A DNA stretch of 64,000 nucleotides from an uncultured Pelagibacteraceae bacterium (GTDB lineage: Bacteria > Pseudomonadota > Alphaproteobacteria > Pelagibacterales > Pelagibacteraceae): positions 124,001 through 188,000 of the forward strand of contig CACPOL010000001.1 of assembly GCA_902635545.1 (NCBI GenBank), written 5' to 3'. Below are positions 5,554 to 41,960 of the stretch, piece after piece; the first letter of the stretch is position 1, and each line of letters starts with the position of its first letter. Under the pieces are notes generated by a model. The model had not been told where the DNA came from. It saw only the letters and a list, made by a program, of their open reading frames with translations, and did not search any database. The translations under genes and the position numbers were made by a program.

Positions 5554-7748
5554 TTTTTTTTAATATTTTCTAAAGTTCTTGTGATAAACCTTGGTGTAAG
5601 TGTTTTTATAGGATTTACAGAAGTTTCTAATTTTTTTGGAGGCCCTTTTATTTTAAAACTTACGCCAAAGACACCCTCACCAATTTTTTTACCAACAAGT
5701 ATATCTCCTAAAATTGGTATCGAACCGATAACTTTATTTATTGTGGTAGCGGGAACTAATGTTCCTCTCAAACTTATTAATTCATTTTTTTGAATATATC
5801 CCTCCATTAAAACTGAAATAGCAGGCCCTATTGCATATATCTCATTAATAGTCATCAAATTTTTTTTATTCTTAAACTTCATTTCAAATTCATTGAATCT
5901 TATTCCTTCCCCTGAGAGTATATCAGCTATTCCTTGCAAAGACGCTAATGTCAAAATTTTAGTTAAAACAGATATTTTTTTTAATTTAAAGTCATATATT
6001 TTTAGTTGGGATGATGAGGTGCCATCTTTTTTAATTGAGTAAAAGTCTAACGAACCTTCTTCAAAACCTTTTATAAAATCATATTTCTTTACGATTGGTT
6101 TTGCATAATCTGAGTAAAATGTAGTTATTTTTCCATCCAAAGATGTCTGAATTGTCATAGTAATCTTTTTGTTTTCATCAAAAAAAGAATTTAAACTCAT
6201 TTTGAAAATTTCACTATCTTTTATATTAATCTTACCTTTTAAATTTTTAGTGTAAAATTCCTTATCTAAAAAAACCTTTGAAATATTCAAATTTATTTGT
6301 GAGCTTTTTTTATCAAATAAATTGGACAAATTGTTTTCATTTTTTGTACTCAACAAATTTTTAACAATTTCCGTTATATCTAATGACCTTCCTGTAATAT
6401 TATAATTTTTTTTTTTTCTTTTTAATTCGATATAATTATCTAAATTATCTTTATTTTTAAGATTAATTTTAAAATAATCTAACTTAGAAAGTTTATTCTT
6501 TTTATTTAATAAAAGGTTTTTAATTAAAATTTCATTTTCATTTTCTTTTAAAGAAATTGATTTAAATTGAATTTTTTCTTTATCATTATAAATGCCTTCT
6601 AAATAAATTTTTGCATTTGATCCTTTAATTTTTTCATATTTTATCAAATTAATTAAAAAGGGATTGTTTAATAAATCCAAAAAGATTTTAAAATGATAAT
6701 TTTTTTTATCTTTTTTGATATCGTAAGTAACTGTATCAATCTCTTTTTGCATTAGTAAATTACCTTTACCTTTAATGTTTAAATAATCTTTATCAAACGA
6801 CAGTTTAATTTTGTGATTTTTTAGAGAAAATTTATTCTTAATATCAGGAAAAAAATCTTGAAAAATAAATTTATTATCAAATTCAAACTCTCTTAAATCA
6901 ATTTCTGAAGTTAAATTAAAATCTTTAATTCTTAATTTTGAGTTTAACTTTAAATAAAACTTATTTTTTGAATCTAAATTTAAAGAACTAATATTTCTGT
7001 TTTTAAAAAAATCAGATAATAAGTTTGATTTTTTAATTTTTGATAAACCTATATCAAAATTTTCAAATTCACCGTTTACTAAAAAATCATTATTCTTTTT
7101 TCTTGCAACTATTGAATTAGCTCTGAATTTTATGTTTTGAAAAGAAAAATCAATCTCTTTAAATTGATAATTGTTGTGAAAAATATTAAATTTAAAATTT
7201 AATCGATGTAAATTATAATTTTTAAAAAAACTAAATTTTCCATCTTTCACAATTCCTTTAATCTCATAATCATCTTTAAAATTTCCGTTTTCATCAAAAT
7301 TTATATTTATATCTGAAATTAAATAACCGTCTTTTGTAAATTTTTCTAAAATATATAAATTCGTTGAATCATTAATTAATCTTAGGAATGGTATCAAATT
7401 TTTTATATCTACTAATTTTGTAGAAATTGATAAATTTTTTATTCTAGCTTCATTTTTCAAAAATTTTAATATTGAAATATTGCTTGTTATGCTCTCTAGA
7501 TCTATTCTTTTATTTTCTAAAATTAATGTTGATCCAAGAGTTTTAAGATTAATACTTAACTCAAACGGTTGTAAAAGTATTTTTACCTTTTTCAAATCCA
7601 AGTCAAATCTTGGATCAATTTTAACCACTTGATTTATTATCTTGTTATTAAATTTATTCGTATTAATTCCAAAAATACTTAAATAAATAACACCTAAAAC
7701 TATAATTAAAAATATACTAATTAAAAATCTATTTATTCCTCTAATCAT
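5550..7748 (-). CDS. AsmA/YhdP-like envelope protein (DUF3971-type)
   Basis: This large 732-aa protein has one N-terminal membrane anchor (about residues 8-27) and a long, Asn/Lys-rich, beta-strand-rich body. The C-terminal part (LQGIADILSGEGIRFNEFE, then GTLVPATTINKVIGSIPILGDILVG and GEGVFGVSFKIKGPPKK) matches the C-terminal module of AsmA/YhdP-type proteins. Members of this superfamily form elongated grooves that bridge the periplasm and are thought to carry phospholipids to the outer membrane. It overlaps the DUF3726 gene by 8 bases and is probably co-transcribed with it. Assignment to the superfamily is good; the exact role is inferred. Confidence 0.8.
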   Translation of the reverse strand: MIRGINRFLISIFLIIVLGVIYLSIFGINTNKFNNKIINQVVKIDPRFDLDLKKVKILLQPFELSINLKTLGSTLILENKRIDLESITSNISILKFLKNEARIKNLSISTKLVDIKNLIPFLRLINDSTNLYILEKFTKDGYLISDININFDENGNFKDDYEIKGIVKDGKFSFFKNYNLHRLNFKFNIFHNNYQFKEIDFSFQNIKFRANSIVARKKNNDFLVNGEFENFDIGLSKIKKSNLLSDFFKNRNISSLNLDSKNKFYLKLNSKLRIKDFNLTSEIDLREFEFDNKFIFQDFFPDIKNKFSLKNHKIKLSFDKDYLNIKGKGNLLMQKEIDTVTYDIKKDKKNYHFKIFLDLLNNPFLINLIKYEKIKGSNAKIYLEGIYNDKEKIQFKSISLKENENEILIKNLLLNKKNKLSKLDYFKINLKNKDNLDNYIELKRKKKNYNITGRSLDITEIVKNLLSTKNENNLSNLFDKKSSQINLNISKVFLDKEFYTKNLKGKINIKDSEIFKMSLNSFFDENKKITMTIQTSLDGKITTFYSDYAKPIVKKYDFIKGFEEGSLDFYSIKKDGTSSSQLKIYDFKLKKISVLTKILTLASLQGIADILSGEGIRFNEFEMKFKNKKNLMTINEIYAIGPAISVLMEGYIQKNELISLRGTLVPATTINKVIGSIPILGDILVGKKIGEGVFGVSFKIKGPPKKLETSVNPIKTLTPRFITRTLENIKKN

Positions 7749-8352
7749 TATCTGTTAAGCCAGCCCCAGCAGATTTATTTTTTAAATTTTCATTTTCTTC
7801 TACAAATATGTTTTCTGATAATTTATAAAGATGTTTCCATTCTTTGTTAGAAAAGCTATCTGCGTTTTTAATAAATTTAATAGAAACTAATTTAGTTTTT
7901 TTTATCATTTTATCCTCAAGAATATTTGAAAAAATATTTTGATTTAAATTTAAATAAAATTCTTGCTTATCAAATTTCAATATAATTTTTTTACCAATAA
8001 TTTCTGAAGCTCTTGAAATGAATGGCAAAAAAAGTATCGGATATGCTAATTTTTCAATTTTGATTTCTCCTATGCTCTTAAGACTATCTGCTTGATCTAA
8101 AAAACTCACACCGGCGATGATTGGGCAAAAATCATACTTTAATGATTTATTTTTTTTTTTAATATCATGGAGATTATTAAATTTACTCTTTTTTTTTTCT
8201 TTATAATAACTAATTAAGTTTTTAATACCTTTAAGACCAAATAATTCTAATAGTCTTATATTTTTACCAATTTCCTCACATATTCCCCAAGAAAAACCAA
8301 CGGCTCGACTAGCTCTTTTTGAAACTGTATCTATCTCACTTAATGATTTCAT
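7741..8352 (-). CDS. DUF3726 domain protein of unknown function
   Basis: This 203-aa protein begins SLSEIDTVSKRASRAVGFSWG and ends SAGAGLTDND; both ends are characteristic of the DUF3726 family, found mainly in alphaproteobacteria. The segment after the first helix (GICEEIGKNIRLLELFGLKG) also fits. No catalytic motif is recognisable and there is no signal peptide or membrane segment. It lies 13 bases downstream of the 550-aa unknown, which follows the M19-like gene by 2 bases, so the three probably act together. Its stop overlaps the start of the AsmA-like gene. Function unknown. Confidence 0.75.
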   Translation of the reverse strand: MKSLSEIDTVSKRASRAVGFSWGICEEIGKNIRLLELFGLKGIKNLISYYKEKKKSKFNNLHDIKKKNKSLKYDFCPIIAGVSFLDQADSLKSIGEIKIEKLAYPILFLPFISRASEIIGKKIILKFDKQEFYLNLNQNIFSNILEDKMIKKTKLVSIKFIKNADSFSNKEWKHLYKLSENIFVEENENLKNKSAGAGLTDND

Positions 8353-8365
8353 CTAATCAATTTAA

Positions 8366-10018
8366 TTAATTGTAAACCCAATTATCATCGAAGGTCTTTA
8401 ATTGCTCAGGTAAAGGTGCACCTTGAAACATGCAAATACGTAACCATTTATCTGATTTAGGATCAAATTTTAATGCTCCAAAAAAAGATAATTTTAATCT
8501 TAACATATCAATTGGTACAGTATCTTTGCTGATAGTATTGTCTTGAATTTCGGCATAAGGAAATTTTTCAACTATAAATGCTCTTCTTATCACATGTCTT
8601 AATTCACTAAAAATTAACAAAAATTTTGCGACAGGTATGCTAAATTTTAATAAATTTAATTTTTCATAAAGTTTTTTTATATCTCTAGCAATAGCTAAAG
8701 GTTGTTCTAACTCCGATCCACTGTTTTCAAATCTATCTGCTAGTCTAGGCTCTTCTTTATTTTTTGAGATAAACCAAAAGTTTTGATTATTCTCTTTTTT
8801 TGAAAAATCAATATTCAATATTCTAGAATATCTTTTTTCTAATATCTTTTTTAGATCATTTGTTGTTCTTTGTGTTGGAATATTAAAATATTGATCTTCG
8901 TCAGAACTCATTTTTCTAATTAAAGGATCTACAATATGATCAAAAGGTTCCATCATCATTGATACAATATATTCAAGACATTCATCATTTGTATTTTTTT
9001 CAAGCCACAGGTAAATACAATTAAAGGGAAAGTTTACTGTGAATTTAAAGCTATTTTCTAAATAAGAAATAAATTTATTTAAATCTCTTCGTAAAGTTTT
9101 TATCTTTTTTAACTGAAAATTACTTTCTGTATTCCATGTTTTTACATTTTTGAGAGATTTTTTCAAACAATCACAAAAATAATCTGCATCTTTTTTTTTA
9201 ACTTTTTTCATTTCTCTTATACTTTTTAATGCTTTTTCTCTTGCATAAATCCAATTATTTAAAAGAGTTGGATGATTTACTATAAAAGGTGCCATTCCAA
9301 GGCCCGTAGAATTTCCAATACCTAATCTTCTACAAATTTTTGGATCTAGTATGACTGATTTTTTTGGATTTCTTTTTTTTGCAACATGATTTACTTGATC
9401 AAATGTAAATTGCCTTACCAGGTAAACCAACATCATTTCCAGTCTAAATGGGCCACAAATTTCTTTTCTATTTTTAATTCTAAATCTATCAGCTAATCCA
9501 AATTTTCCTGATCCATACACTGCGGTTGTTCTATAAAGATATCCAACTTTAGATAATAAATTTATATCAGGTTGTCTTCCATTGCTAAGGCAATTTACAA
9601 CATACTCAAATATACGAATAGATTTATTTGCTCTCGATAATGTTAATTCTTTATAAGAAAGTCTACCAACTTCTTGTTTTGGGACTTGATTTTTGAGTCT
9701 TTTAATATCTTTATTAGAGGGAGTGCCATCAAATAACGTAAAAGCTGCGTCCCATTTAGTTGCGATAACTCTGTCCGATCTTTCATTTTCATTTATTTTA
9801 TTAGCAAAACAAATTAACGAATAAACTCTTTTTTCCTTTTTAAAAGAGTATATTGCAGTTCCAAAACCAGATTTATCAAGTTTAAAAAGATTTCTTTTAT
9901 AATCCCAATTTTTAAACTCTTTCAAAAAACTTCTGAGAAACGACAATTTGGATTGATGAAATGATCCAAGCTTAGATAATTTCATTATTTGGTTTGGGTT
10001 TCTTAAACTAATATTCAT
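8366..10018 (-). CDS. Conserved hypothetical protein, 550 aa
   Basis: I do not recognise a named family. The protein is soluble-looking, with no signal peptide and no membrane segment, and begins MNISLRNPNQIMKLSKLGSFHQS. It has compact, conserved-looking blocks: LYRTTAVYGSGKFGLADR and GPFRLEMMLVYLVRQFTFDQVNHVA in the middle, RRLGIGNSTGLGMAPFIVNHP, and near the C-terminus FEKFPYAE-like and CMFQGAPLPEQLKTFDDNWVYN. The GSGKFG stretch is not a good P-loop. The gene lies between the M19-like dipeptidase homologue and DUF3726 with 2-base and 13-base gaps, implying one transcript and a shared function. Confidence 0.7.
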   Translation of the reverse strand: MNISLRNPNQIMKLSKLGSFHQSKLSFLRSFLKEFKNWDYKRNLFKLDKSGFGTAIYSFKKEKRVYSLICFANKINENERSDRVIATKWDAAFTLFDGTPSNKDIKRLKNQVPKQEVGRLSYKELTLSRANKSIRIFEYVVNCLSNGRQPDINLLSKVGYLYRTTAVYGSGKFGLADRFRIKNRKEICGPFRLEMMLVYLVRQFTFDQVNHVAKKRNPKKSVILDPKICRRLGIGNSTGLGMAPFIVNHPTLLNNWIYAREKALKSIREMKKVKKKDADYFCDCLKKSLKNVKTWNTESNFQLKKIKTLRRDLNKFISYLENSFKFTVNFPFNCIYLWLEKNTNDECLEYIVSMMMEPFDHIVDPLIRKMSSDEDQYFNIPTQRTTNDLKKILEKRYSRILNIDFSKKENNQNFWFISKNKEEPRLADRFENSGSELEQPLAIARDIKKLYEKLNLLKFSIPVAKFLLIFSELRHVIRRAFIVEKFPYAEIQDNTISKDTVPIDMLRLKLSFFGALKFDPKSDKWLRICMFQGAPLPEQLKTFDDNWVYN

Positions 10019-10020
10019 TA

Positions 10021-10986
10021 TTATATTCTTTTATAAAAATTGTACCAATTGTTTCCTAAAATACCATTGATTTCAGCTTCTGAAAAACCAACTTTTTTCA
10101 AACCGGTCTCTAAATTTTTAAATCCTCTCGCATCCAAAAACCATTTTGGTTGTTTTGGAAACCCAGGATTATTTTTTGTTCCTTCCCCATAGTTTTTTGA
10201 TTTTGACCAAGTTCCATTTCTCATCCATTCAACTATTTTATCTGGCTGATCTAGACATAAATCACTTCCTATACCAACTTTATCAATACCCATTATTTCT
10301 GTTGTTCTTGCTATCATTTCACAGAAGCTTTCCAGAGTACACTCAGATCCATTCTTTAAATGATGGGGGTATAATGACACTCCTAACATACCTCCACTTT
10401 CACCTAAAACTTTTAAAAGCTCGTTTGATTTATTTCTTTTTGCAGAATACCAGAAGTTTGGGTTAGCATGTGTTATTGCAATTGGTTTTTCGCTTATTTC
10501 AATTGCATCAAAAGTACTTTGCTCAGCAGAGTGTGACATGTCAACAACTAAACCTAATCTATTCATTTCCTTAATAACTTCTCTTCCAAAATTTGTTACT
10601 CCTGAGTCTTTTTTTTCATAACATCCGGAGGCCAATAGAGATTGATTATTGTATGTGAGTTGCATAAATCTACAACCTTGATTATAAACCTTTTCAACTA
10701 AATCAATATTATCCTCTATTGGTGAACAATTCTGAAAACCAAAAAAAATTGCCGTTTTATTCTCTTTCTTTGCTCTTTCGATATCTTTAAAATTTTTTCC
10801 AAGAAAAATTAAATCTTTATTGTCTTTGAAGTGAATATTCCATGAATTTATAATTTTTTGGAGTTCGTCAAAATCTTCATGATAAACAATTGTAACGTGG
10901 ATGGCGTCTAAACCTGCCTCTCTATTAATTTCAAAGATTTTTCTTGTCCAATTGCAATATTGTAAGTTATCGATCTTAAAATTCAT
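10021..10986 (-). CDS. M19 (renal dipeptidase)-like protein with altered metal site
   Basis: This 321-aa TIM-barrel amidohydrolase of the peptidase M19 family would normally be a di-zinc dipeptidase. Retained features are DMSHSAEQ and ITHANP (the two His ligands of the second metal), AKRN (substrate-binding Arg) and IGSDLCLD (catalytic Asp). However, the N-terminal HxD motif is absent (the protein starts MNFKIDNLQYCNW), and the position of the bridging Glu is Gln (GFQNCSPIED). It may therefore bind one metal or have a different reaction. It is first in a three-gene operon with a 550-aa unknown and a DUF3726 protein. Family membership is clear; dipeptidase activity is doubtful. Confidence 0.82.
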   Translation of the reverse strand: MNFKIDNLQYCNWTRKIFEINREAGLDAIHVTIVYHEDFDELQKIINSWNIHFKDNKDLIFLGKNFKDIERAKKENKTAIFFGFQNCSPIEDNIDLVEKVYNQGCRFMQLTYNNQSLLASGCYEKKDSGVTNFGREVIKEMNRLGLVVDMSHSAEQSTFDAIEISEKPIAITHANPNFWYSAKRNKSNELLKVLGESGGMLGVSLYPHHLKNGSECTLESFCEMIARTTEIMGIDKVGIGSDLCLDQPDKIVEWMRNGTWSKSKNYGEGTKNNPGFPKQPKWFLDARGFKNLETGLKKVGFSEAEINGILGNNWYNFYKRI

Positions 10987-17130: not shown

Positions 17131-17718
17131 TTACTTTCCAATATAACCAAACTCTAAACAGGCATCAGTTATAGAATGATATAAAGACTCTCCAAAACTT
17201 CTTAAAGCAAAAATTCTCAATTTTTCTGGTTTATCATTTGTCATATCAACAGTGATCGATATACCATTAAAAATAGAATTCAAACAATTATTCTTATTTA
17301 AATTATTAAAATTAAAAGGGCATCCTTTTTTCAGTACTTCTTTAGCTTCATCTCCCTCTAATTCAATGATTGCTCTAGAATGTGATAAATCTGTAACAGC
17401 AAAATCTTTATCACTAAAATTTTGTTCAATTTCTTTTATAATCTTTTTATTTTTTGAAACTATTAGCCAATTTCTTGGTCCATACCAAAGAATTCTTGTA
17501 TTCTCATTATTGCTTACATTTAAAGGGTTGTTGCTTATTTTTAAATTGTCAATAATAAGTTTATCTATTAAATTATTGGAGTTTTTATATTGAACAACTT
17601 GAACAATTAGTAAATTCTTCAATTCAGAAACTTTCAGTAGACTATTTTCATCTTTATCTTCATAATCTCCAAACTGTCCTTTTTGATGAACATTTTCTAA
17701 AGCAGAAATTAAACTCAT
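17131..17718 (-). CDS. soxG: Sarcosine oxidase gamma subunit family
   Basis: This 195-aa protein is the last gene of a soxB-soxD-soxA-soxG operon and has the gamma-subunit pattern: [37 protein letters not shown] and a [15 protein letters not shown]-terminal segment. In heterotetrameric sarcosine oxidase the gamma subunit has a GcvT-like fold and packs against alpha. The homologous subunit of N-methylglutamate dehydrogenase (MgdD) looks alike, so the substrate of the complex is open. Its start overlaps the soxA stop by 4 bases. Confidence 0.88.
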
Positions 17719-20711
17719 GATCTAACTCTTTCTCCTTTTGGATCTACATAATGAGAAGAGACAATTTCAACTGGAATTATTTTATTTTTTAATGGTGACA
17801 TTACAAATAATTTTTCTCCAATCATATTTTTTCCATCTTTCAATATAGCTAATGAAAATGGATTATCATATTCTACACTCCAACAAGACGCAGAAATGTG
17901 GCCTAATTTTTTATTTGGCAATGAAGCTTTCGCGTCTTTAACTAAATGGGAACCTTCAGGGATATTAGTTTTTTTATCTATTGGAACCACTCCAACAATT
18001 CTTTGTCTATCTTTAGCTACAAAAGCTAGTCTCTGTAATGATCTTTTTCCAATAAAATCTTTCTTTTTACTAACCAATCCTTCTAGAGCATTGTCATATG
18101 GAATTGTTCTTCCATCTAATTCTGAACCTGCAACGTGGCCCATCTCAATTCTTAAAGTAGATAATGCCTCAGTTCCGTATGGCTGAATCTTAAATTCTTC
18201 CCCTAATTCAACAATTTTTTCCCACATAAATTTCCCATAGTCAGACTCTACATTTAGCTCATAAGCTAGCTCACCTGAGAACGAAATTCTAAAAATTCTT
18301 GTTTTAACACCAAACAAGTCACCTTCCATAAAACCCATGAAAGGTAGATTCTCATTCGATACATCATTGTTTGGAAATAGTTTTTTTAATAAGTTCCTTG
18401 AGTTTGGGCCAGCAATAGCAGCACCAGCCCATTGCTCTGTTGTTGAAACAACATTTACGTTTAGTTCTGGCCACACTAATTGAAGATAATACTCAAGATG
18501 CGAAAGCACATTAGCTGCTTGAGCGGTAGTCGTTGTCATGTGATAATGATTTTCTGAAATTCTTGTGGTGGTACCATCATCCATAACTATTCCATCTTCT
18601 CTTAACATCACTCCGTATCTAGCTTTACCAACAGGCAACTTTAGCCATGCATTAGTATATACTCTATTTAAAAATTCAGCTGCGTCTGGACCTTTAATAT
18701 CTATTTTTCCTAAAGTAGTTACATCACAAACTCCAACGTTGGTTCTTACATTTTTAGCCTCTCTCTTTGATGCTTCAAATAAATTTTCATCACCTTTTTT
18801 ATAATATCTTGGCCTTAACCAAACTCCAGCATCAACAAAAATTGCATTATTCTTTTCATGCCAGGAATGCATTGGTGATTTTCTTGTTGGTTTAGAATGT
18901 TTTCCAATTTCTCTCCCTACAATTGCACCAATTGATATGGGTGTATAAGGTGGCCTAAAGGTAGTATGTCCAACAGATGGAACCACTTTATTTTCGATGT
19001 CTGATACTAATTGCAAACCATTCAAATTACTTGTCTTACCTTGGTCAGTAGCCATACCAAGAGTTGTATATCTTTTTACATGTTCTATTGAACGATACCC
19101 TTCTCTTAGAGCTAACTCAATATCTGAAACTGAAACATCATTTTGAAAATCTAAAAATCTTTTATAATTTTTTCCTTTTGGTAATGGAACACACCAAAAT
19201 TTATCATGTTTAGAGTATTTTTTTTCTACTATATTTGGAATAGAAACTTTGTTTTCTATATTAGTTATTTTTTTTGAGAGATTGTTTCCTGCCTCAAATG
19301 ATGTCTTCAATGTTTCTTTAAGTGAAAAAACTCCATTTGCTGCTCCCAAGGTAGTTTCATTCTGCTTAGACTTACCAGGTATGAAAGCATCTATATTATC
19401 ATCAAATTTAGTTTTATTACCAGATTGAGAAGCTAAGTGAATAGTAGGTGTCCAAAACCCTGAGACACAAATACAATCACAATTAATATTTTCTATTTTA
19501 CCTAATTTTTTTTTATCTTTTGAAATTAAAGCAATGTCTGCTGATTTTACTTTTTTATAACCTTTAGCTGCTACAACAACATAAGAAAATTTTATATTTA
19601 ATCCTAAATTTTTTGCCTCATCTACTATTTCTGAAGCTGGATTTTCTCTTGAGTCTAAAACTATTGGATCAATACCATTTTTTTTAAATTCAATAGCTGT
19701 TTCATACCCACTATCATTATTTGTAAATACTAATGGCTTTTTTCCAACTAAAACTCCATAAACTTTCATGTATTCTTTTGCAGCAGATGAAAGCATAACA
19801 CCAGGAGTATCGTTATTACCAAAAACTATTGGTCTTTCAATGGATCCTGAAGAAATTAAAACTTCTTTCGCTCTTATGTACCATAATTTTTTATTAGGAT
19901 GATATTTTTTAGTTTTTGGCAAATGATCGCTGATCTTTTCAGACATTACTAGCATGTTGTGATCATAATACCCAAAAATTTGAGATCTATTTTTAACAAT
20001 AACATTTGGCATATCTTTAAGTTCTGCGATAATTTTTTCAGCCCAATTTTTTCCTGACTGGTTTCCAATATTGACATCACTTGTTAGTAAAGATCCACCA
20101 AATCTAGATTTATCTTCTGCTAAAATTACTTTTGCACCATTTTTTGCAGCAGCATAAGCGCTTGAAAGTCCAGATGGTCCAGATCCAGCAATTAATAAAT
20201 CACAATACTCGTATTTATGTTCATATCTTTCTTTATCATGTTTTGTCGAAGCAACCCCTAATCCAGCTGCTTTTCTTATGAAAGGTTCATAAACTTTATA
20301 CCAAAAACTTTTTGGCCACATGAATGTCTTATAATAAAAACCAGCTGGTAAAAAAATTTTTAAAATATTATTAATTGCGCCTATATCAAAATTAACACTT
20401 GGCCAACAGTTAACACTCTTTGCTTCTAAACCCTCAAAAAGTTCTTGCTCTGTCGCTTTGATATTTGGTTCAGTTTCACCATCTCTATATAACTGAACAA
20501 CAGCATAAGGTTCGTCAGCTCCAGCTCCAAAAAATCCTCTAGGTCTATGATATTTAAAACTTCTACCTACTAAATGAACTCCATTAGCTAATAAAGCTGA
20601 AGCTAAAGTATCTCCTTCATACCCTTGATACTTTTTTCCATTAAATTTAAATGAAATTTTTTTATTTCTTTTAATAAGCCCAATATCTTTCAATCTAAAT
20701 TCTTGAGACAT
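17715..20711 (-). CDS. soxA: Sarcosine oxidase alpha subunit family
   Basis: This 998-aa subunit carries an N-terminal Fer2_4-like domain (about 1-105, [17 protein letters not shown], lacking cluster cysteines), a dinucleotide-binding oxidoreductase domain (about 165-500, [33 protein letters not shown]), and a C-terminal GcvT-type folate-binding domain from about residue 610. In the tetrameric enzyme, oxidation of the N-methyl group yields methylene-THF in the GcvT domain of alpha. It lies between soxD (1-base overlap) and soxG (4-base overlap). The same architecture occurs in N-methylglutamate dehydrogenase MgdC. Divergent Fhs next door would use the resulting C1 unit. Confidence 0.93.
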
Positions 20712-20980: not shown

Positions 20981-22237
20981 TTATGAAATCCAAGTTTTTG
21001 TACCAAGTCCCTTTTCATCGAGTAAGTGACCTGTATTAAATCTATTTAAACTATATCCAGCATTTAATTTATGAACTTTATCTTGTGCAATCGTATGTGC
21101 AAATGTCCAACCAGATGCTGGAGTTGCTTTAAAACCACCGTAACACCACCCACAATTTAAGTACAATCCTTCAATGTGAGTTTTATCAATTATAGGTGAA
21201 CCATCCATTGACATGTCCATTATGCCACCCCAAGTCCTTAACATTTTTAACTTGCTTAAAAAAGGCATCATCGCAATACCTTCTGTTAATACATGCTGCA
21301 AAGTTGGTAAGTTTCCTCTTTGAGCATAACTATTGTATCCATCCAAATCACCTCCCATAACCATTTCACCTTTATCTGATTGGCTTATATAAAAATGACC
21401 TGCACCAAATGTAACTACTTTATCTAGAACTGGCTTCACTGGTTCGGAAACACATGCTTGTAAAAGATGTGTTTCAATTGGTAATCTCATATTTAATTTC
21501 TCTGCTAAAATATTTGTGCTACCAGCTACACACAATCCTATTTTTTTTGCTTTGATATCTCCACGAGAAGTTCTAACTCCAGTAATTTTTCCAGCAGATA
21601 CATCAAATCCAATTACTTCACAATTTTGAATTATATCTACTCCCATCGAGTCTGCTTGACGAGCGTAACCCCAGGCTACTGCATCATGCCTAGCAGTGCC
21701 TGCACTTGGTTGCATCAAACCTCCAAAAATTGGAAATCTCACATTTTCAGAAAAGTCCGCCATTGGAATAATTTCTTGTACTTGTTCCCTATTCAGAAGA
21801 ACTGCATCAATCCCATTCAGTCTCATTGAGTTACCTCTTCTGGCATAAACATTCATTTGAGCATCAGAGTGAGCAAGATTAATTATGCCACGGGGAGAAA
21901 ACATTACATTATAATTTAAATCTTGACTCATCCGTCTCCATAAATCCATTCCAAATTCACTAAACAATCCATTATCATCGTGCATATAATTAGATCTTAT
22001 TATTGTAGTATTACGTCCAACATTGCCCCCACCGATCCAGCCTTTTTCAATTATTGCAACATTTGTAATTTGATGCTCTTTTGCCAGATAATAAGCTGTT
22101 GCCAATCCATGGCCTCCACCACCAATTATAACGACATCATATTCTTTTTTGGGAGATGGATCTTTCCAAGCTAAATCCCATTTTTCATGATTAGAAAAAG
22201 CGTTCTTTATAAGGCTAAATATTGAGTAATTTTGCAT
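20981..22237 (-). CDS. soxB: Sarcosine oxidase beta subunit family
   Basis: This 418-aa FAD-dependent amine oxidoreductase of the DAO family is the first gene of soxBDAG. The FAD-binding glycine motif IIGGGGHGLATAYYLA lies at residues 37-52. His184 in GTARHDAVAWGYAR corresponds to the region that carries the covalent FMN histidine in characterised tetrameric sarcosine oxidases. The C-terminal block LYLNCGWCYGGFKATPASGW is typical of the beta subunit. The operon diverges from fhs. The same family includes MgdA of the methylamine pathway, so sarcosine is the default but not the only possible substrate. Confidence 0.93.
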   Translation of the reverse strand: MQNYSIFSLIKNAFSNHEKWDLAWKDPSPKKEYDVVIIGGGGHGLATAYYLAKEHQITNVAIIEKGWIGGGNVGRNTTIIRSNYMHDDNGLFSEFGMDLWRRMSQDLNYNVMFSPRGIINLAHSDAQMNVYARRGNSMRLNGIDAVLLNREQVQEIIPMADFSENVRFPIFGGLMQPSAGTARHDAVAWGYARQADSMGVDIIQNCEVIGFDVSAGKITGVRTSRGDIKAKKIGLCVAGSTNILAEKLNMRLPIETHLLQACVSEPVKPVLDKVVTFGAGHFYISQSDKGEMVMGGDLDGYNSYAQRGNLPTLQHVLTEGIAMMPFLSKLKMLRTWGGIMDMSMDGSPIIDKTHIEGLYLNCGWCYGGFKATPASGWTFAHTIAQDKVHKLNAGYSLNRFNTGHLLDEKGLGTKTWIS

Positions 22238-31132: not shown

Positions 31133-33472
31133 ATGTTGTTAACTACAAGAGATATTAAAGAACCTGGATTAAATGTCCTACCACCTGGAGTTGAAAGACA
31201 TGTAATTAATGCTGGTGGAATAACGGGTATACAAATTTTTCCAGATGACGAAATAGAATTAATAAACGATGAGGGAAATCAAATTTGTGAAATAACCTGT
31301 TTTAACAAAGATGGAAAATGTCAACTTGAAATATTAAACTTAAAAGAAAGTAGAAGCGCAAATTCCATTTTAGAGATATTAAGTAACAAAGATGAAAAAA
31401 CTTTAGCAACAAATCTTCAACTAAAAAAAAGAAAATTAAATATTAAAAATTCAAAAACATCGATTTTGTTTGATAGAGATACGCCCAGTGGTGAGAAAAC
31501 TAAATTAAAAGCAAGAGATGAATGTTACGTAATTTTAGCTGCTCCTAAAAATCAAATGTCAATAAGTGATCAAAATCCATCAAGTGATTTAACAATATTT
31601 ATTAAAAGATCTAAAATTACTAATGATAAAGAACTTACTGTTATTCCTGATCCTGTTTATGAGCCTAATTATGAAAAAAATATCGATAGGCAAACTTGTA
31701 TTTCCTATCAGGTTAAAGAAGGAGATTATATACAAATTATAAGTCCAGCAGGAAGACAATGTTCAGATTTTGTAGCGTTCGATACAAAAAAACTTGATAA
31801 AGGTTTAGAGAAAGGTCTTGATTGGCAAACGACTAGAACTTTTATGGGTAATACTTTTCCAGGGCCAGGATTATTTTCAAAATTTTATGATACAGACCAC
31901 GAACCTTTGGTAGAAGTAATTAGAGATACAGTAGGTAAACATGATACTTTTAATTTAGCTTGCACTTCAAAATATTATGAAGATTCTGGTTACTTTGGAC
32001 ATCCTAACTGTTCAGACAATCTTAGTAATTCTATGTCAAAATATGGTATTCAAAAACAAAAAGGATGGCATGCAATAAATTTATTTTTTAATACTTCTGC
32101 TGTCGGTTTAAATTCTGTAATTTCAGATGAGTCTTATGCTAGACCTGGTGACTATGTAATGTTTAGAGCTTTAAAAGATCTCACTATTGGAACTACTGCA
32201 TGCCCAAGTGATATTGATGCATGTAATTCGTGGAATCCAACTGATATTTTTGTTAGAACTTATGACAAAAATAAAGAATTTTCAAAATCTTTTGCTTTTA
32301 GAATGAAAACAGACTCTGAAAAAAAACTAACAAGAAATTCTGGTTTCCATAAAAGAACTTCAAAATTAACAAGAAACTTTATTGACGCTAGAGGTTTTTG
32401 GTTGCCTAATGATTATACTAAACATGGAGTCGTTGAAGAATATAACGCCTGCAGAGAAAAAGCTGTATTAATTGATTTATCATCTTTAAGAAAATTTGAA
32501 ATTATTGGGCCGGATGCTGAGGAGTTAATGAATTATACATTAACTAGAAATATTAAAAAACTTTCTGTTGGGCAGGTTGTTTATTCTGCTATGTGTTATG
32601 AAAATGGAATGATGTTTGATGATGGAACATTATTAAAGTTAAGTGAAACTGGTTTTAGATGGATTTGTGGGGATGAGTATGCTGGTGAATGGTTAAAAGA
32701 AGTGGCTAAGAAAAAAAACTTTAAGGCAAATGTAAAAAACTCAACAGATCAAATTAGCAATGTTTCTATTCAAGGACCTAAAAGTAGAGAAATTTTGAAA
32801 AAATTAATTTTTACTCCTCCTACCCAGCCATCGATAGATGAATTAGAATGGTTTAGGTTTACAATTTGTAGAATTGAAGATCTCCAAGGTATTCCATTGA
32901 TTGTTTCCAGAACAGGTTATACTGGTGAACTTGGTTATGAAGTATGGTGTCATCCAAAACATGCACCCGAGGTATGGGATAAACTTATGGAAGCTGGAAA
33001 AGATCACGGTTTAATTCCTGCGGGATTTGCCGCTTTAGATAAATTAAGAATTGAGGCAGGTTTGATTTTATTTGGTAATGAATTTGATGGTCAACAAGAT
33101 CCCTTTGAAGCTGGGATTGGTTTTGCGGTTCCACTAAAAACAAAAGAAGAGGATTTTATAGGAAAAGAAATTTTAAAAGAGAGAAAAGCTAATCCACAAA
33201 AAAAACTTGTCGGTTTAGAACTTATTGGAAAAGAACATGCCGGCCATGGTGATTGTGTTCATGTTGGTAGATCACAGGTTGGAATAGTTACAAGTGGTTG
33301 CTTATCGACAACTCTTAACAAAAATATAGCATTATGTAGAATTGATACTCAATATTCAGAACCTGGAACAGAAGTTGAAATTGGAAAAATTGATGGTCAT
33401 CAAAAAAGAATTTCAGCAAAAGTTGTAAGTTTCCCTCACTTTGACCCTAAGAAGACTAGAGTAAGATCTTAA
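31133..33472 (+). CDS. Tandem DUF1989-like plus GcvT-type fusion protein
   Basis: This 779-aa multidomain protein has three parts. Residues 1-165 are beta-rich and begin like a DUF1989 domain (FPDDEIELINDEGNQICEI). Residues about 185-400 form a clear DUF1989 (urea carboxylase-associated) domain: AGRQCSDFVAFD near 206, GHPNCSDNLS near 288, TACPSDIDACN near 354. From about 417 to the end is a GcvT-type THF-dependent aminomethyltransferase domain (LIDLSSLRKFEIIGPDAE; SRTGYTGELGYEVW; AALDKLRIEAG). It probably moves a methyl group from a nitrogen compound to THF; the substrate is unknown. It diverges from opuAC and overlaps the next gene by one base (TAATG). Confidence 0.85.
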   Translation: MLLTTRDIKEPGLNVLPPGVERHVINAGGITGIQIFPDDEIELINDEGNQICEITCFNKDGKCQLEILNLKESRSANSILEILSNKDEKTLATNLQLKKRKLNIKNSKTSILFDRDTPSGEKTKLKARDECYVILAAPKNQMSISDQNPSSDLTIFIKRSKITNDKELTVIPDPVYEPNYEKNIDRQTCISYQVKEGDYIQIISPAGRQCSDFVAFDTKKLDKGLEKGLDWQTTRTFMGNTFPGPGLFSKFYDTDHEPLVEVIRDTVGKHDTFNLACTSKYYEDSGYFGHPNCSDNLSNSMSKYGIQKQKGWHAINLFFNTSAVGLNSVISDESYARPGDYVMFRALKDLTIGTTACPSDIDACNSWNPTDIFVRTYDKNKEFSKSFAFRMKTDSEKKLTRNSGFHKRTSKLTRNFIDARGFWLPNDYTKHGVVEEYNACREKAVLIDLSSLRKFEIIGPDAEELMNYTLTRNIKKLSVGQVVYSAMCYENGMMFDDGTLLKLSETGFRWICGDEYAGEWLKEVAKKKNFKANVKNSTDQISNVSIQGPKSREILKKLIFTPPTQPSIDELEWFRFTICRIEDLQGIPLIVSRTGYTGELGYEVWCHPKHAPEVWDKLMEAGKDHGLIPAGFAALDKLRIEAGLILFGNEFDGQQDPFEAGIGFAVPLKTKEEDFIGKEILKERKANPQKKLVGLELIGKEHAGHGDCVHVGRSQVGIVTSGCLSTTLNKNIALCRIDTQYSEPGTEVEIGKIDGHQKRISAKVVSFPHFDPKKTRVRS

Positions 33473-33822: not shown

Positions 33823-33883
33823 AGAAAAAGTAATTAATTACTTATAAATTTTATATATATAAAAAATTATATATTTACGTATC

Positions 33884-35230: not shown

Positions 35231-35298
35231 ACTTCAAGCCTAGACACTAATAAATTTTTCAGCTACGCTTGAATAAATATTAATTGATTGAGGGTAAA

Positions 35299-36768
35299 AT
35301 GACGGATCTAGAAAAACATGTTAACCAACCAGGTAGAGCCAAGTTAGTAAAAAGAGTTAGAGAAAAAATTAATGAGTTAGGAATAACTTATATTTATTAT
35401 CAATTTATTTCAGTAACAGGTAGAGTTGTTGGTAAGGGGATTCCAGCAGATCACTGGGAAAGAACTGCTGAAAAAGGTTTTCAATTAGTGTATGGAGCAA
35501 CTGCTAATTTATTTTTAGATCGTCACAATAACTATATTGGTTATGGACCTGAGGCAATGGAACTTGTGGGTATTCCCGACCCTGAAACATTTTGCCAATT
35601 ACCTTGGGATAAAAGAGTAGGAAGAGTTTTTGTAACTTGTTTCAGAAATAGAGAAGAAAGAAATAACCCAGGTGGTCATTTGACTTCTGATTGCAGAGGA
35701 AATTTAAGAATTTTCATGGAAGAATTTGAAAAAAAACATGGTCTTGAATTAAGAGTTGGTACTGAGCCTGAAATGATGTGGCTTACAAAAAATGAAGATG
35801 GCACTCCGACTGGAAAAGGTTTTTCAAAACCATTTTGCTATCATATAGATCAATTTGAGTCCCTAAGACCTGTATTTATGAAAGTAATTGAATACGCTAA
35901 AGCAATGGGACTAGACATGATTCAGGGTGATCATGAAGACGCACCTGGTCAATTAGAGCTAAACTGGACTTATGATAATGTTTTAAGAAATGCTGATAGA
36001 TTATCAACTTACAGACAAATTTGTGCACAAGTTGCAAGAGAACATAACTTGATTGCTTGTTTTATGACTAAACCTTTCATGGGTGTATCAGCAAGTGGTT
36101 GTCATACTAATATGTCTTTATGGAAAGGTGGAAAAGTAAAGACAAATAAGCTTGGTCATAAAAGTTTACCAGCTGTTGAAGAAGTGTTTGGTTATGTCGA
36201 GGGCGGGACAAATACTTTTATGCCTGATACAAAAGATATGCAATTACCAGGTAAGATAGGATTACAATCAATTGCAGGTATAATGGAACACTTACCAGCT
36301 TTAACTGCATTAGGATCTTCAACTGTAAATTCATATAGAAGATTATGGGATCAAGGTTTTTGGGCACCTGTTTATGCTGATTGGGGTTATCAAAACAGAA
36401 CTTGTGGATTAAGAGTTTCTGCACCTGGAAGATTTGAATATAGATCAGTAGACTCAATGCATAATCCTTATTTGCTAGGTGCTGCTTTGTTAAAAGCTTG
36501 TGACCATGGAATAAGTAATAAGATGAAACCAGCAGATCCAGAGTCTAGAAACATTTACGAAGCTCAAAAAGCAGGTAAAGATGTTAAAAAACTTCCTTTA
36601 AGTTTAGGTGAGGCTTTAGAAAGGTTGTCTGAAGATGAAGTTATTAAGTCTGCTATGCCAGATGAAATGTATAAAGTTTTCCACTGGTATAAAAATGATG
36701 AATGGGAGAGATTTTTAGGAGCAACAACTCAATGGGATCTAGATACTTATTTAGATTGTTTACCATAA
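35299..36768 (+). CDS. glnT: Glutamine synthetase-family ligase (GlnT/GmaS-like)
   Basis: This ligase of about 489 aa has the GS catalytic core: GTEPEMMW (metal-binding Glu), QGDHEDAPGQLELNW, KPFMGVSASGCHTNMSLW (ATP/metal His) and CGLRVSAPGRFEYR. GS-like enzymes of this kind occur upstream of glxBCD in rhizobia (glnT) and in methylamine clusters, where gamma-glutamylmethylamide synthetase (gmaS) is the homologue. The ATG at 35299 is preceded by GAGGG; a TTG at 35284 is less likely. GlxB starts 25 bases downstream. True glutamine synthetase activity is uncertain. Confidence 0.82.
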   Translation: MTDLEKHVNQPGRAKLVKRVREKINELGITYIYYQFISVTGRVVGKGIPADHWERTAEKGFQLVYGATANLFLDRHNNYIGYGPEAMELVGIPDPETFCQLPWDKRVGRVFVTCFRNREERNNPGGHLTSDCRGNLRIFMEEFEKKHGLELRVGTEPEMMWLTKNEDGTPTGKGFSKPFCYHIDQFESLRPVFMKVIEYAKAMGLDMIQGDHEDAPGQLELNWTYDNVLRNADRLSTYRQICAQVAREHNLIACFMTKPFMGVSASGCHTNMSLWKGGKVKTNKLGHKSLPAVEEVFGYVEGGTNTFMPDTKDMQLPGKIGLQSIAGIMEHLPALTALGSSTVNSYRRLWDQGFWAPVYADWGYQNRTCGLRVSAPGRFEYRSVDSMHNPYLLGAALLKACDHGISNKMKPADPESRNIYEAQKAGKDVKKLPLSLGEALERLSEDEVIKSAMPDEMYKVFHWYKNDEWERFLGATTQWDLDTYLDCLP

Positions 36769-36793
36769 TAATATTGACAGAGAGGGAAAGTAT

Positions 36794-37738
36794 ATGTGCG
36801 GAATAGCAGGATTAATTCATAGAGGAAAATCTTCAAAAGTTGGTCATGAGCTACAAGGAATGTTGCAAGCTTTAAAACACAGAGGAGAAGACTCTACGGG
36901 CTATGCTTTATATGGTGATACTGACGGAAAAAATTTCATTATGAGATTTAAAGTTGGTGAAAACGTCGGTGAAGGAAGTACATCGGTTTCTGAAGATATT
37001 TCTGTTTATGACGAAAGAAAAAAAATGGTAGATAGTTACCTTGCTGAGATGGGAGCAAAAATTGTTAAAGAAGAAAGAACTCTTCCCTACTCTTTAAGAT
37101 ATGAAATTCAATATGATAAAAAAGATTTATTGGAATTCTCACAAAAAATTGAAAGTATTCCAGGTGTTGAGATACTTTCTATGGGTAAATCTTTAGAGGT
37201 AATAAAAGATCTTGGAAATGCTAAAATGGTTTGTGACAGATATAATTTAGATAAACTTGTCGGTACCCACGCAATTGGTCATGCTAGAATGGCAACGGAG
37301 TCTGGAGTGGATATTAAATCAGCTCACCCTTTTTGGGGATACCCATTTAGTGATGTATCAGTAGTTCATAATGGTCAATTAACTAATTATTGGAATAATA
37401 GACGTGCTCTAGAAAATAAAGGAATGAGATTTATGTCTGAATGTGACTCTGAACTTATTGCTGTTTATTTAGCAGAAAAAATGAGAGATGGTGCTTCTTT
37501 AGAAGAAGGTATGAAAGAATCTCTTACAGGTTTAGATGGGGTGTTCACTTACTTTGTGGCAACAAAAGATTCTTTAGGTATGGCAAAAGATACCATGGCG
37601 GCTAAACCATTAGTCTTATATGAGTCAGATGATTTAGTGGCAATGGGGTCTGAAGAAATAGCAATTAGATCAATTTTACCACAAGAGATTGATACTTATG
37701 ATCCATTTGATGGAGAGGTAAAAGTATGGCAAATTTAA
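36794..37738 (+). CDS. glxB: Class II glutamine amidotransferase (GlxB/MgsA-like)
   Basis: This 314-aa Ntn-type amidotransferase corresponds to the N-terminal domain of large-subunit glutamate synthase. The nucleophile is Cys2 in MCGIAGLIHRG, exposed after Met removal; RGEDSTGYA, HARMATES and VVHNGQLTNYWNNRR complete the site. In glxBCD/mgsABC systems the three glutamate-synthase domains are separate polypeptides. It overlaps glxC by 13 bases. The product is either an ordinary glutamate synthase-like subunit or N-methylglutamate synthase subunit A; sequence alone does not decide. Confidence 0.88.
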   Translation: MCGIAGLIHRGKSSKVGHELQGMLQALKHRGEDSTGYALYGDTDGKNFIMRFKVGENVGEGSTSVSEDISVYDERKKMVDSYLAEMGAKIVKEERTLPYSLRYEIQYDKKDLLEFSQKIESIPGVEILSMGKSLEVIKDLGNAKMVCDRYNLDKLVGTHAIGHARMATESGVDIKSAHPFWGYPFSDVSVVHNGQLTNYWNNRRALENKGMRFMSECDSELIAVYLAEKMRDGASLEEGMKESLTGLDGVFTYFVATKDSLGMAKDTMAAKPLVLYESDDLVAMGSEEIAIRSILPQEIDTYDPFDGEVKVWQI

Positions 37739-38580
37739 AAAATGTTACAAAAAAAACTAAAGCCCAAGCTATGGGTATGCATACAGAAGTTCTAACCGGT
37801 AGAACACAACAAAAGTTTTTTAATCCTGATGAAGCAGAAAATTTTTATTACTTTGGAACTTACGACGTAGATTTTAACAAAAGAACTGATTTGGATATAA
37901 AAGACATGACAGCCGCAGATGCAAACAAAGAAATAGATAATCTAATGAGCCAAGGTTATGGAACCATAGTTATTAAAAATCCGCAAGGTAAGCACAGTAT
38001 AGGTGTTGGAATTTTAAATAAATTGAATTTGATTTTTGAAGGTAGCTTAGGATATTTTGGAATAGGTTCTTGTGATGGACCAACAGTTCGAATCAATGGA
38101 AGAGTTGGTTGGTCTTGTGCTGAAAATTTAATGGCTGGTAAAGTAGTAATAGAAAAAAATGCAGGATCGTGTTTTGGAGCCGCAATTAGAGGTGGAGATC
38201 TAATTTGTAAAGGTAGTGTTGGTGCCAGAACTGGTATTGACATGAAAGGTGGAACTATAATTATTGGTGGAGATGCTGGTGCTTTTACAGGTTTTATGAT
38301 GCAAAGAGGTAGAATAATTATACTAGGTGACGTTGGGATTAATTTAGGCGACTCTATGTATGATGGGACAATTTTCGTAGGTGGAGAAATTGGCTCTTAT
38401 GGTAGTGATGCTGTAGACGCTGAATTAACAAAAAGTGATCAAGATTGGTTGAAACGAAAATTGAAGGTTGCTGAAATTGGTGAAAATTTTAATGTGAGTA
38501 AAATGAAAAAAATAGTAGCTGGTAAAAAACTTTGGAACTACGATAATTTAGAACCTACTGAGAAAAAAGGAGCAATTTAA
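37726..38580 (+). CDS. glxC: GXGXG beta-helix protein (GlxC/MgsB-like)
   Basis: This 284-aa protein corresponds to the GXGXG domain at the C-terminus of glutamate synthase. The repeated Gly pairs (VRINGRVGWSC, SCFGAAIRGGDL, MKGGTIIIGGDAG, MYDGTIFVGGEIG) are those of a right-handed beta-helix that has a structural role in the complex. An N-terminal extension of about 65 residues precedes the repeats. It overlaps glxB by 13 bases and glxD by one base, so the three subunits are coupled. Confidence 0.88.
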   Translation: MANLKNVTKKTKAQAMGMHTEVLTGRTQQKFFNPDEAENFYYFGTYDVDFNKRTDLDIKDMTAADANKEIDNLMSQGYGTIVIKNPQGKHSIGVGILNKLNLIFEGSLGYFGIGSCDGPTVRINGRVGWSCAENLMAGKVVIEKNAGSCFGAAIRGGDLICKGSVGARTGIDMKGGTIIIGGDAGAFTGFMMQRGRIIILGDVGINLGDSMYDGTIFVGGEIGSYGSDAVDAELTKSDQDWLKRKLKVAEIGENFNVSKMKKIVAGKKLWNYDNLEPTEKKGAI

Positions 38581-39998
38581 TGGCAAAGAAAAAAAAGAAA
38601 AAAAATGGTAAAATAAAAAAGAATGATAATGTTGGTGGAAAAGCTGATGTTCATTTAAGTTCTAATGGAGGGAGAAATAAAAGTCTATTAGGACACAATG
38701 CTATTTTTACTCCAGATGTAATTGATGACATTCATATAAAATCTCAATTAGGAAGATACAGAATGCGTGGAATGGCATTAATGAAAAAAATTCCAACTTT
38801 TGATGATTTGGTTTTCTTGCCAGGTACACTTACAAGATTTGTAATTGAAGGATACAGAGAAAAGTGTGAAACTAAAACCGTAATTGGTCCAAGATGTGAA
38901 AATCCAATTGAGTTAGATATTCCTGTTTATATCACTGGAATGAGTTTTGGAGCTTTATCTTATGAAGCTAAAACTGCTCTTGCAAGAGGAGCAACAATGG
39001 CTGGTAGTGCAACATGTTCAGGTGAAGGTGGAATGATACCTGACGAAAGAAGATATTCGGAAAAGTGGTTTTACCAATGCATTCAATCTAGATATGGGTT
39101 TAACCCACATCATGCACAACTTGCAGATGGAATAGAAGTTTTTATTGGACAGGGTCAAAAAGTTGGAATGGGTGGTCACTTAATGGGTCAAAAAGTTACT
39201 GACCAAGTGGCTGAGATGAGATCACTACCGTCTGGTATTGATCAAAGATCTCCTGCAAGACATCCTGATTGGTTAGGTCCAGATGACTTAGCTTTAAAAG
39301 TAGAGGAGTTAAGACAATTAACGAAAAATAAAGTTCCAATTCAATTGAAATTAGGTGCATCAAAAGTTTATGACGATGTACGTATGGCTGCAAAATGTGA
39401 TCCTGACTCGATTTACCTCGACGGTATGGAAGGTTCAACAGGAGCTGGGCCACACATAGCAGCTGCAAACACAGGTATACCAGGTATTGCTGCAATTAGA
39501 GAAGCTAGAAGAGCATTAGATGATGTAGGTAAAACTGGAAAAGTAACTCTGATCTATGCAGGTGGTGTTAGAGATGGTGCTGATATGGCAAAAGCTTTAG
39601 CTTTAGGTGCTGATGCGATAGCAATCGGAACAGGTTCTATGATTGCACTAAACTGCAATAAAGATATTCCAGAAGCAAATTTTGAAAAAGAAATGGGTGT
39701 TAAAGCGGGTGAATGTTACCATTGCCACACTGGAAGATGTCCGGTTGGTGTTGCAACACAAGATCCTAAATTAAGAGCTAGACTAAATCCTGATGATGCT
39801 GCCCTAAGAGTTTATAACTATCTTCATTCAATGACTCTTGAAGCTCAATTATTAGCTAGAGCATGTGGAAAAACAAATATTCACTCTCTAGAACCTGAAG
39901 ATTTAGCTGCACTAACATCTGAAGCTTCAGCTTTAGCTAAAGTTCCTCTAGCAGGAACGAATTATACCGTAGGAGTAGATAACTTTCATAAAATTTAA
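38580..39998 (+). CDS. glxD: FMN-dependent glutamate synthase-like protein (GlxD/MgsC-like)
   Basis: This 472-aa TIM-barrel flavoprotein is equivalent to the synthase domain of glutamate synthase. It has ITGMSFGALSYEAK, GEGGMIPDER, QLKLGASKVYDDV, the FMN region YAGGVRDGADMAKALALGADAIAIG and cluster-type cysteines Cys379, Cys382 and Cys387 in GECYHCHTGRCPVG. The N-terminus is an unusual lysine tract, MAKKKKKKNGKIKKND, absent from the fold proper. It overlaps glxC by one base and is followed 8 bases later by an unknown gene that also starts with a lysine tract. Confidence 0.9.
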   Translation: MAKKKKKKNGKIKKNDNVGGKADVHLSSNGGRNKSLLGHNAIFTPDVIDDIHIKSQLGRYRMRGMALMKKIPTFDDLVFLPGTLTRFVIEGYREKCETKTVIGPRCENPIELDIPVYITGMSFGALSYEAKTALARGATMAGSATCSGEGGMIPDERRYSEKWFYQCIQSRYGFNPHHAQLADGIEVFIGQGQKVGMGGHLMGQKVTDQVAEMRSLPSGIDQRSPARHPDWLGPDDLALKVEELRQLTKNKVPIQLKLGASKVYDDVRMAAKCDPDSIYLDGMEGSTGAGPHIAAANTGIPGIAAIREARRALDDVGKTGKVTLIYAGGVRDGADMAKALALGADAIAIGTGSMIALNCNKDIPEANFEKEMGVKAGECYHCHTGRCPVGVATQDPKLRARLNPDDAALRVYNYLHSMTLEAQLLARACGKTNIHSLEPEDLAALTSEASALAKVPLAGTNYTVGVDNFHKI

Positions 39999-40006
39999 AG
40001 TTTATT

Positions 40007-40423: not shown

Positions 40424-40427
40424 TATC

Positions 40428-40450
40428 ACAATCTAAAGTTGTTTTTTTTT
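40428..40450 (+). terminator. Weak intrinsic terminator after the glx operon
   Basis: A 4-bp stem (ACAA/TTGT) around a 7-base loop is followed by a run of at least nine T. The stem is short, so the call rests mainly on the T-run and its position five bases after the stop. It would separate the GS/Glx genes from amt. Confidence 0.3.
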
Positions 40451-41949: not shown

Positions 41950-41960
41950 AGGAGGAATAT

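Follow-up and report, generated by a model that had tools for sequence, protein, structure and literature searches.

A conserved trio of an M19-like protein, an orphan 550-residue protein and a DUF3726 protein in a Pelagibacteraceae genome, and its proposed part in homarine catabolism

The trigonelline route TgnABCDE, which ends in methylamine and succinate semialdehyde, is one of the described systems closest to the locus analysed here. Another is a homarine catabolic operon, homABCDER, reportedly described by Ferrer-Gonzalez et al. in 2026 (Nat Microbiol 11:1531). The locus lies in a 64,000-nucleotide stretch of DNA from an uncultured Pelagibacteraceae bacterium (contig CACPOL010000001.1, positions 124,001 to 188,000), hereafter the window, and consists of three adjacent genes encoding an M19-like amidohydrolase homologue, an orphan protein of 550 residues, here called X550, and a protein of the DUF3726 family. 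Despite its ordinary look, this trio forms the core of a catabolic module that is widespread. On balance we think it probable that the three genes are the central part of an operon for the breakdown of an N-methylated, betaine-like ring compound, homarine (N-methylpicolinate) being the most likely one, and that they feed N-methylglutamate to a SoxBDAG-type dehydrogenase, probably N-methylglutamate dehydrogenase (Mgd), encoded 6 kb away.

Compared with TgnABCDE, the module would act on the same substrate class, the N-methylpyridine carboxylates, in the same proposed order of ring opening, aldehyde oxidation and hydrolysis, but its proposed product is N-methylglutamate and not methylamine and succinate semialdehyde. 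A Tgn-type flavin monooxygenase and reductase are not among the trio: none of the 28 X550 members in the alignment matches a Pfam family at E 0.01, and the other two proteins match only M19 and DUF3726. With homABCDER, the roseobacter and rhizobial loci would share the gene number (five enzymes and a LysR-type regulator), a link to Mgd-type genes and an occurrence in marine Alphaproteobacteria, whereas the SAR11-type loci differ in that hom-type aldehyde dehydrogenase (ALDH), Ldh_2 and LysR genes are not linked to the trio.

The trio and its conservation

All three open reading frames (ORFs) of the trio are on the minus strand, with intergenic gaps of 2 and 13 bases. The first (10021..10986) encodes the M19-like protein of 321 residues, in which the dipeptidase metal site is altered and which matches Peptidase_M19 (Pfam, 2.4e-72) from profile position 35; the second (8366..10018) encodes X550, the proposed ring-opening component, for which all Pfam matches fall below cut-off (best E 0.015) and no NCBIfam match was obtained; and the third (7741..8352) encodes a protein of 203 residues with a predicted Ldh_2-type fold and a conserved C-terminal tail, assigned to DUF3726 (PF12525) by Pfam at 3.6e-20, with 72.1 bits against a cut-off of 22.1. 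An earlier reading of this DNA, hereafter the sequence-only reading, had described three such closely spaced genes, and both the ORFs and Pfam bear this out. In the vicinity of the trio, no Rfam match up to E 1 and no terminators were found, and promoter-like sites occur at the rate of shuffled sequence (38 versus 39.2).

All regions fetched for comparison were picked for holding X550, and neighbours were counted by six-frame profile searches of the fetched loci, a trio being defined as M19 upstream and DUF3726 downstream on one strand; these searches supersede an earlier longest-ORF count, which missed genes in high-GC genomes. The source genome is of SAR11 type, and the SAR11-type set contains the best 80 of 582 confirmed relatives in named genomes, 67–77% identical, 79 of them titled Pelagibacter, Pelagibacteraceae or Pelagibacterales and one 'Alpha proteobacterium'. 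The class set comprises 40 regions (35 of the 39 class genomes holding X550, two second copies and three relatives) without G064, G074 and G077, which were not fetched, and G000, which is the window; the phylum set comprises 25 regions (23 of 29 matching genomes and two second copies, five genomes being already covered and G687 not fetched), and the plasmid set 11 regions picked by hand from 168 matching records.

X550 was found in 39 of the 289 class genomes and DUF3726, as PF12525, in 32 of the 289 and in none of 14 control genomes. The 32 all belong to the 39, each with DUF3726 directly downstream of X550 according to the listed coordinates, and no DUF3726 without X550 was found in the 289 class genomes (hypergeometric 4e-36 for the co-occurrence, phylogeny ignored). 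Of the seven X550 genomes without a PF12525 match (G057, G074, G077, G084, G088, G122 and G258), our own DUF3726 profile found the gene in G084 and G258; it gave no match in G088, where the contig ends, or in G057 and G122, which are distant. The complete trio was present in 79/80 SAR11-type loci, the remaining one being at a contig end, and in 33/40 class, 17/25 phylum and 7/11 plasmid regions. X550 and DUF3726 occur without a nearby M19 gene in L060, L084 and L086, and in L069 M19 is on the opposite strand. Among the genomes of relatives, many of them incomplete, X550 is present in 26 of 41, its own genome included. In most loci examined the three genes are therefore not apart, and the joint action that had been suggested for them fits well with their being found together far beyond SAR11.

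Four genomes of one family (G154, G252, G491 and G621) carry two X550 copies each. In the tree, both copies of G154, and likewise those of G252, fall in different clades, and the family has therefore probably split in function. In a Vibrio-type clade (L183, a Vibrio sp. plasmid, with L236, L238, L240, L243 and L244) the arrangement is M19-BCCT-X550, accompanied by LysR and ALDH in all but L240, whose region begins at a contig start; no DUF3726 match was obtained at the threshold used, the gene being either lost or too divergent. A haloarchaeal X550 of 31.5% identity is found in L180 (Natrinema versiforme plasmid pNVE500, 3905-13288), its neighbours being ALDH, a gene of the DHDPS family, a BCCT transporter and a weak match to DUF3726; at this locus no M19 gene was detected.

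A distant module in L184 (Sinorhizobium medicae pSMED01) and L185 (Bosea), at about 7.2–16 kb, holds IclR, X550-like, DUF3726-like, M19-like and ABC transporter genes, with a class III aminotransferase-like gene recognised by eye in L184. Within this Bosea/Sinorhizobium clade, X550 (about 24–26% identity) is followed by a protein of 236–251 residues and by M19, and then by the ABC transporter, which is polyamine-like by eye. The alignment of the middle protein with DUF3726 runs almost from end to end (hhalign E 6e-4, probability 29%), and the trio therefore seems to recur in this clade in another order; the substrate of this version of the module is probably different.

An AsmA-like gene of 732 residues (5550-7748), so named by eye, lies downstream in the window and overlaps the DUF3726 gene by 8 bases. 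It was rejected as a fourth member and placed outside the system because its homologue directly follows DUF3726 in only 1 of the 80 SAR11-type loci and was seen at any position in just 4 of them.

Extended operons and transporters in relatives

In roseobacters and rhizobia the trio lies inside a larger operon consisting of LysR and ALDH-M19-X550-DUF3726-Ldh_2 reductase. In Ruegeria TM1040 the order is SoxA, SoxG, a helix-turn-helix (HTH) regulator and LysR, then ALDH-M19-BCCT-X550-DUF3726-Ldh_2; Aliiroseovarius has the same four leading genes, then ALDH-M19-X550-DUF3726-Ldh_2, with BCCT after them. Pararhizobium and Aminobacter carry LysR and ALDH-M19-X550-DUF3726-Ldh_2 followed by a ProX, ProW and ProV-type transporter, and Phaeobacter inhibens has LysR, ALDH, M19, X550 and DUF3726 without Ldh_2. 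The statement of the sequence-only reading that no neighbouring gene explains the role of the trio accordingly fails on this wider scale, where methylated-amine genes and the operon partners of relatives come into view.

An ALDH gene upstream (within 5 kb, same strand) was counted in 11/40 class, 14/25 phylum and 8/11 plasmid regions, and Ldh_2 directly downstream in 12/40, 5/25 and 5/11, respectively; in the SAR11-type set both counts are 0/80. Transporters of BCCT or ProX type were counted within 10 kb in 10/40 class, 14/25 phylum, 8/11 plasmid and 27/80 SAR11-type cases. In 25 of these 27, a ProX/ProW pair, possibly part of another cluster, is situated on the opposite strand about 5–6 kb downstream; in L108, the one inspected, the neighbours resemble another betaine cluster by eye. 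Only L160 and L167 (5.9–12.8 kb) were therefore counted as operonic for ProX among the SAR11-type loci: both have ProX-ProW directly before the trio on the same strand, L160 ending after X550 and L167 carrying an ALDH of another subfamily directly after the trio.

The window itself holds, of the set LysR, ALDH, M19, X550, DUF3726 and Ldh_2, only the trio. In a quick tree of X550, SAR11 and its order join L056/L057 with a Shimodaira–Hasegawa-like approximate likelihood ratio (SH-aLRT) support of 99, and as the operon of L056/L057 includes ProX, ProW and ALDH, a loss of linked partners in SAR11 appears likely. For the ALDHs of L056 and L188 the highest-ranking models are those of 2,5-dioxovalerate and alpha-ketoglutaric semialdehyde dehydrogenase, with scores below the cut-offs of these models, and these first ranks match the carbon skeleton that the scheme proposed below needs. 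For the operon Ldh_2 (that of L179), the nearest solved relative is piperideine-2-carboxylate reductase (1wtj) at E 4.8e-53, against 2.2e-38 for the next.

The three proteins

Dipeptidases of the M19 family have a two-metal site formed by an N-terminal HxD motif, a bridging Glu and two His residues. In the M19-like protein of the window, Gln85 stands where the dipeptidases shown have Glu, while His152, His173, Arg184 and Asp242 are kept, and these five residues are invariant in 24 M19-like sequences, in agreement with the sequence-only reading, which had called the protein a metal-site-altered dipeptidase homologue. Relative to M19 membrane dipeptidase, the Peptidase_M19 domain and the two His are therefore kept but the Glu is not, and the HxD motif is not recognisable by sequence comparison. 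The nearest solved relative by sequence is PDB 2i5g (8.3e-56), an M19-family 'amidohydrolase' for which we know of no tested function, with dipeptidases next; it has in common with the M19-like protein Gln in place of Glu and the retention of His/His/Asp. A dipeptidase role was rejected because of these altered metal ligands (Glu replaced by Gln85, HxD not recognisable), and the protein would instead hydrolyse its substrate via a reduced metal site.

The alignment of X550 contains long invariant blocks, so that the conserved blocks noted earlier in the 550-residue protein are real. A structure model built from 71 SAR11-type sequences reached a mean predicted local distance difference test (pLDDT) score of 75.8 and a predicted template modelling (pTM) score of 0.81, with several of the most conserved loops below 50. 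Searches for solved relatives gave nothing above chance (E 1.4 and 0.19 by sequence, E 1.5 with Foldseek, Z 4.0 at best with VIA), and X550 likewise matched no known enzyme in Pfam or among solved structures by sequence and fold; with conserved loops of pLDDT below 50, the absence of a structure match does not show that the fold is new.

For DUF3726, the AlphaFold2 model (63 sequences) has a mean pLDDT of 88.2 and a pTM of 0.80. Foldseek matches 1 to 14 of this model are all of Ldh_2 type (best E 0.011, probability 0.96–1.00, none below E 0.001), and VIA-align 2 returned 15 entries with Z 8.9–10.7, followed by a drop to 3.6, in which 162–183 of the 203 residues are aligned; against 1wtj, Z is 9.4 with a root-mean-square deviation (rmsd) of 3.7 over 162 residues, the rmsd of most others being 8–11. 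Each of the 15 is, in addition, matched in sequence by the operon's own Ldh_2. In a profile comparison with the operon Ldh_2 (hhalign), the N-terminal helices are in register at E 3e-4 and a probability of 39%, this probability being only 4.9% with a shallow SAR11-only alignment. DUF3726 thus resembles the Ldh_2 family (1wtj, ureidoglycolate dehydrogenase) in predicted fold and in the register of these helices; it differs in having no PF02615 match in Pfam, no counterpart in the profile alignment of the SHG motif, which is invariant in the Ldh_2 alignment (A6), and no full NAD(P)-binding region, and it is without about half of the Ldh_2 length (its 162–183 aligned residues correspond to chains of 312–361). 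Its C-terminal tail, AGAGLTDND, hardly varies among 63 SAR11-type sequences, whereas in a diverse set (n=16) only the first Ala and Gly are invariant, the rest being mostly kept. Residues 190–203 have pLDDT below 50, and a tail that is conserved yet predicted to be disordered suggests docking into a partner.

A more far-reaching view, which we offer as speculative, is that X550 and DUF3726 may form a new two-subunit class of enzymes opening N-methylpyridinium-type rings. X550, whose fold is unmatched among the solved structures searched here, would be joined by a DUF3726 subunit descended from an Ldh_2 imine reductase (perhaps as a duplicate of the operon's own Ldh_2) after loss of the nucleotide-binding half and the SHG motif, its conserved, disordered tail extending into X550; combined with other partners, the same module would handle other substrates in rhizobia and haloarchaea.

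A candidate homarine pathway

The conversion of homarine to N-methylglutamate requires the loss of one ring carbon, here taken to be C6, and the formulae balance by hand (homarine, C7H7NO2, to N-methylglutamate, C6H11NO4, and formate). In step 1, for which the ring opening of trigonelline by TgnAB is the model, X550 with DUF3726 as an obligate subunit would open the pyridinium ring between C5 and C6, giving an N-formyl-N-methyl group and a C5 aldehyde. An ALDH would oxidise this aldehyde to the acid (step 2), the M19-like protein would cleave off the N-formyl group as formate (step 3), an Ldh_2 reductase of the piperideine-2-carboxylate type would reduce the N-methyl imine to N-methylglutamate (step 4), and Mgd would convert the latter to glutamate (step 5). 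Such a route (oxygenase ring opening, aldehyde oxidation, deformylation and imine reduction) would give each step one enzyme class from the extended operon. Ring opening would fall to X550 and DUF3726 by elimination, the support extending to the enzyme classes only. The substrate and every reaction are those that we infer, as is the service of other genes in steps 2 and 4 in this genome, and the exact assignment of the steps is tentative.

About 6 kb from the trio, at 17131-22237 on the minus strand, lie genes for a SoxG-type subunit, probably of Mgd (17131..17718; soxG 5e-21, under the cut-off), a SoxA-type subunit, probably MgdC (17715..20711; over the NCBIfam cut-off and the only full-length copy found in the assembly), and a SoxB-type subunit, probably MgdA (20981..22237; over the NCBIfam cut-off). 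A SoxA-type gene is found within 10 kb in 51/80 SAR11-type loci, many regions reaching less than 10 kb, and in other arrangements in L069, L074, L095, L179 and L188. Passages of PMC13390433 describe the N-methylglutamate dehydrogenase of R. pomeroyi as mgdABCD, located beside the AraC-type regulator tmaR, and cite a recent report of Mgd being involved in homarine catabolism. By analogy, the HTH gene that TM1040 and Aliiroseovarius have between SoxG and LysR would fit the mgdABCD/tmaR layout. Fast drawdown of homarine by R. pomeroyi is described in a passage of PMC12817926.

Further along the window there is a methylated-amine island (31133-43748) with a TMAO demethylase-like gene (31133..33472, plus strand; 1093.2 bits against a cut-off of 1100), glutamine-synthetase-like genes, a probably GmaS-like one of which stands with three glutamate-synthase-type genes in what appears to be the layout of N-methylglutamate synthase, Mgs (together 35284..39998, plus strand), and an ammonium transporter.

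The module probably corresponds to the homABCDER operon, and would then have been described already; the degradation of an unusual amino acid derivative, which the sequence-only reading had suggested, fits an operon with ALDH, imine-reductase-type Ldh_2, LysR and betaine-type transporters, but the system can hardly be called uncharacterised if, as is probable, it is the homarine operon. A number of points weigh against the homarine reading. One is the complete lack of adjoining hom-type ALDH or Ldh_2 genes in the 80 SAR11-type loci, and the best candidates elsewhere in this genome, whose assembly is 82% complete (about 18% of the genome estimated missing), are 31% identical for ALDH (38% to the L167 ALDH), 35% for Ldh_2 and only 24% for ProX. 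The ALDHs that adjoin the trio in L095 and L167 are nearer to the window, and their first rank goes to betaine-aldehyde dehydrogenase, below cut-off, and not to the dioxovalerate type, which lowers our confidence in the pathway. No family, sequence or fold match of X550 supports an oxygenase, leaving step 1 without direct support. Outside the SAR11-type set, SoxA-type genes within 10 kb are confined to 5/40 class, 0/25 phylum and 2/11 plasmid regions (many of the regions being shorter than 10 kb on a side), and the profile cannot separate Mgd from sarcosine oxidase. Finally, passages of PMC8269262 report poorer growth of R. pomeroyi on homarine than on trigonelline and, citing TgnA/TgnB, argue that this system would be hindered on homarine. 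No homarine genes are named in the passages of PMC12817926 and PMC8269262, and homarine is not mentioned in the transporter paper PMC10130141.

It is possible, if rather doubtful, that the module works on a different N-methyl compound, cyclic or quaternary (N-methylproline, hydroxyproline betaine, pipecolate betaine or trigonelline), which likewise reaches a 2,5-dioxo or N-methylglutamate-type intermediate, the substrate perhaps varying by clade. The 2,5-dioxovalerate-type ALDH and piperideine-2-carboxylate-type Ldh_2 would also suit hydroxyproline or pipecolate routes, several genomes carry two X550 copies, the haloarchaeal locus combines X550 with ALDH, BCCT and a DHDPS-family gene, and the Bosea/Sinorhizobium clade has its X550-(DUF3726-like)-M19 arrangement and ABC transporter without hom-type ALDH or Ldh_2. 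On the other hand, the role of Mgd in homarine catabolism cited in the passage of PMC13390433, together with the SoxA-type linkage, favours N-methylglutamate as the product in the marine clade, and SAR11 groups with L056/L057, whose operon has ALDH and ProX/ProW.

We also regard it as unlikely that the pathway is right with its roles swapped, the M19-like protein opening the ring or hydrolysing an imine and X550 with DUF3726 performing a step that comes later or is not a redox reaction (hydratase, lyase or the handling of an imine). His152, His173 and Asp242 are kept in the M19-like protein, and the predicted fold of DUF3726 is that of the imine-reducing Ldh_2 enzymes; however, opening an aromatic pyridinium by hydrolysis alone would leave the electrons unbalanced without further oxidation, as worked out by hand, and X550, an orphan, is the largest of the parts and has long invariant blocks. 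That the three genes are mere neighbours with unrelated roles is refuted by the conservation data and extremely improbable, since the 8-base overlap of an unrelated fourth gene with DUF3726 in the window and the three loci without a nearby M19 are set against a trio in nearly all SAR11-type and most class and phylum loci, and a DUF3726 never found without X550 in 289 genomes.

In the open-access literature, to which our search was confined, neither DUF3726 nor homABCDER is named, and neither the relation of DUF3726 to the Ldh_2 fold nor the standing of X550 as an orphan was met in print. With the trio read as a linked pathway core in SAR11, X550 together with DUF3726 would serve as marker genes, and these two protein families of unknown function would be the likely place of ring chemistry that is as yet unexplained. 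For DUF3726, a predicted fold and a likely ancestor make its role testable.

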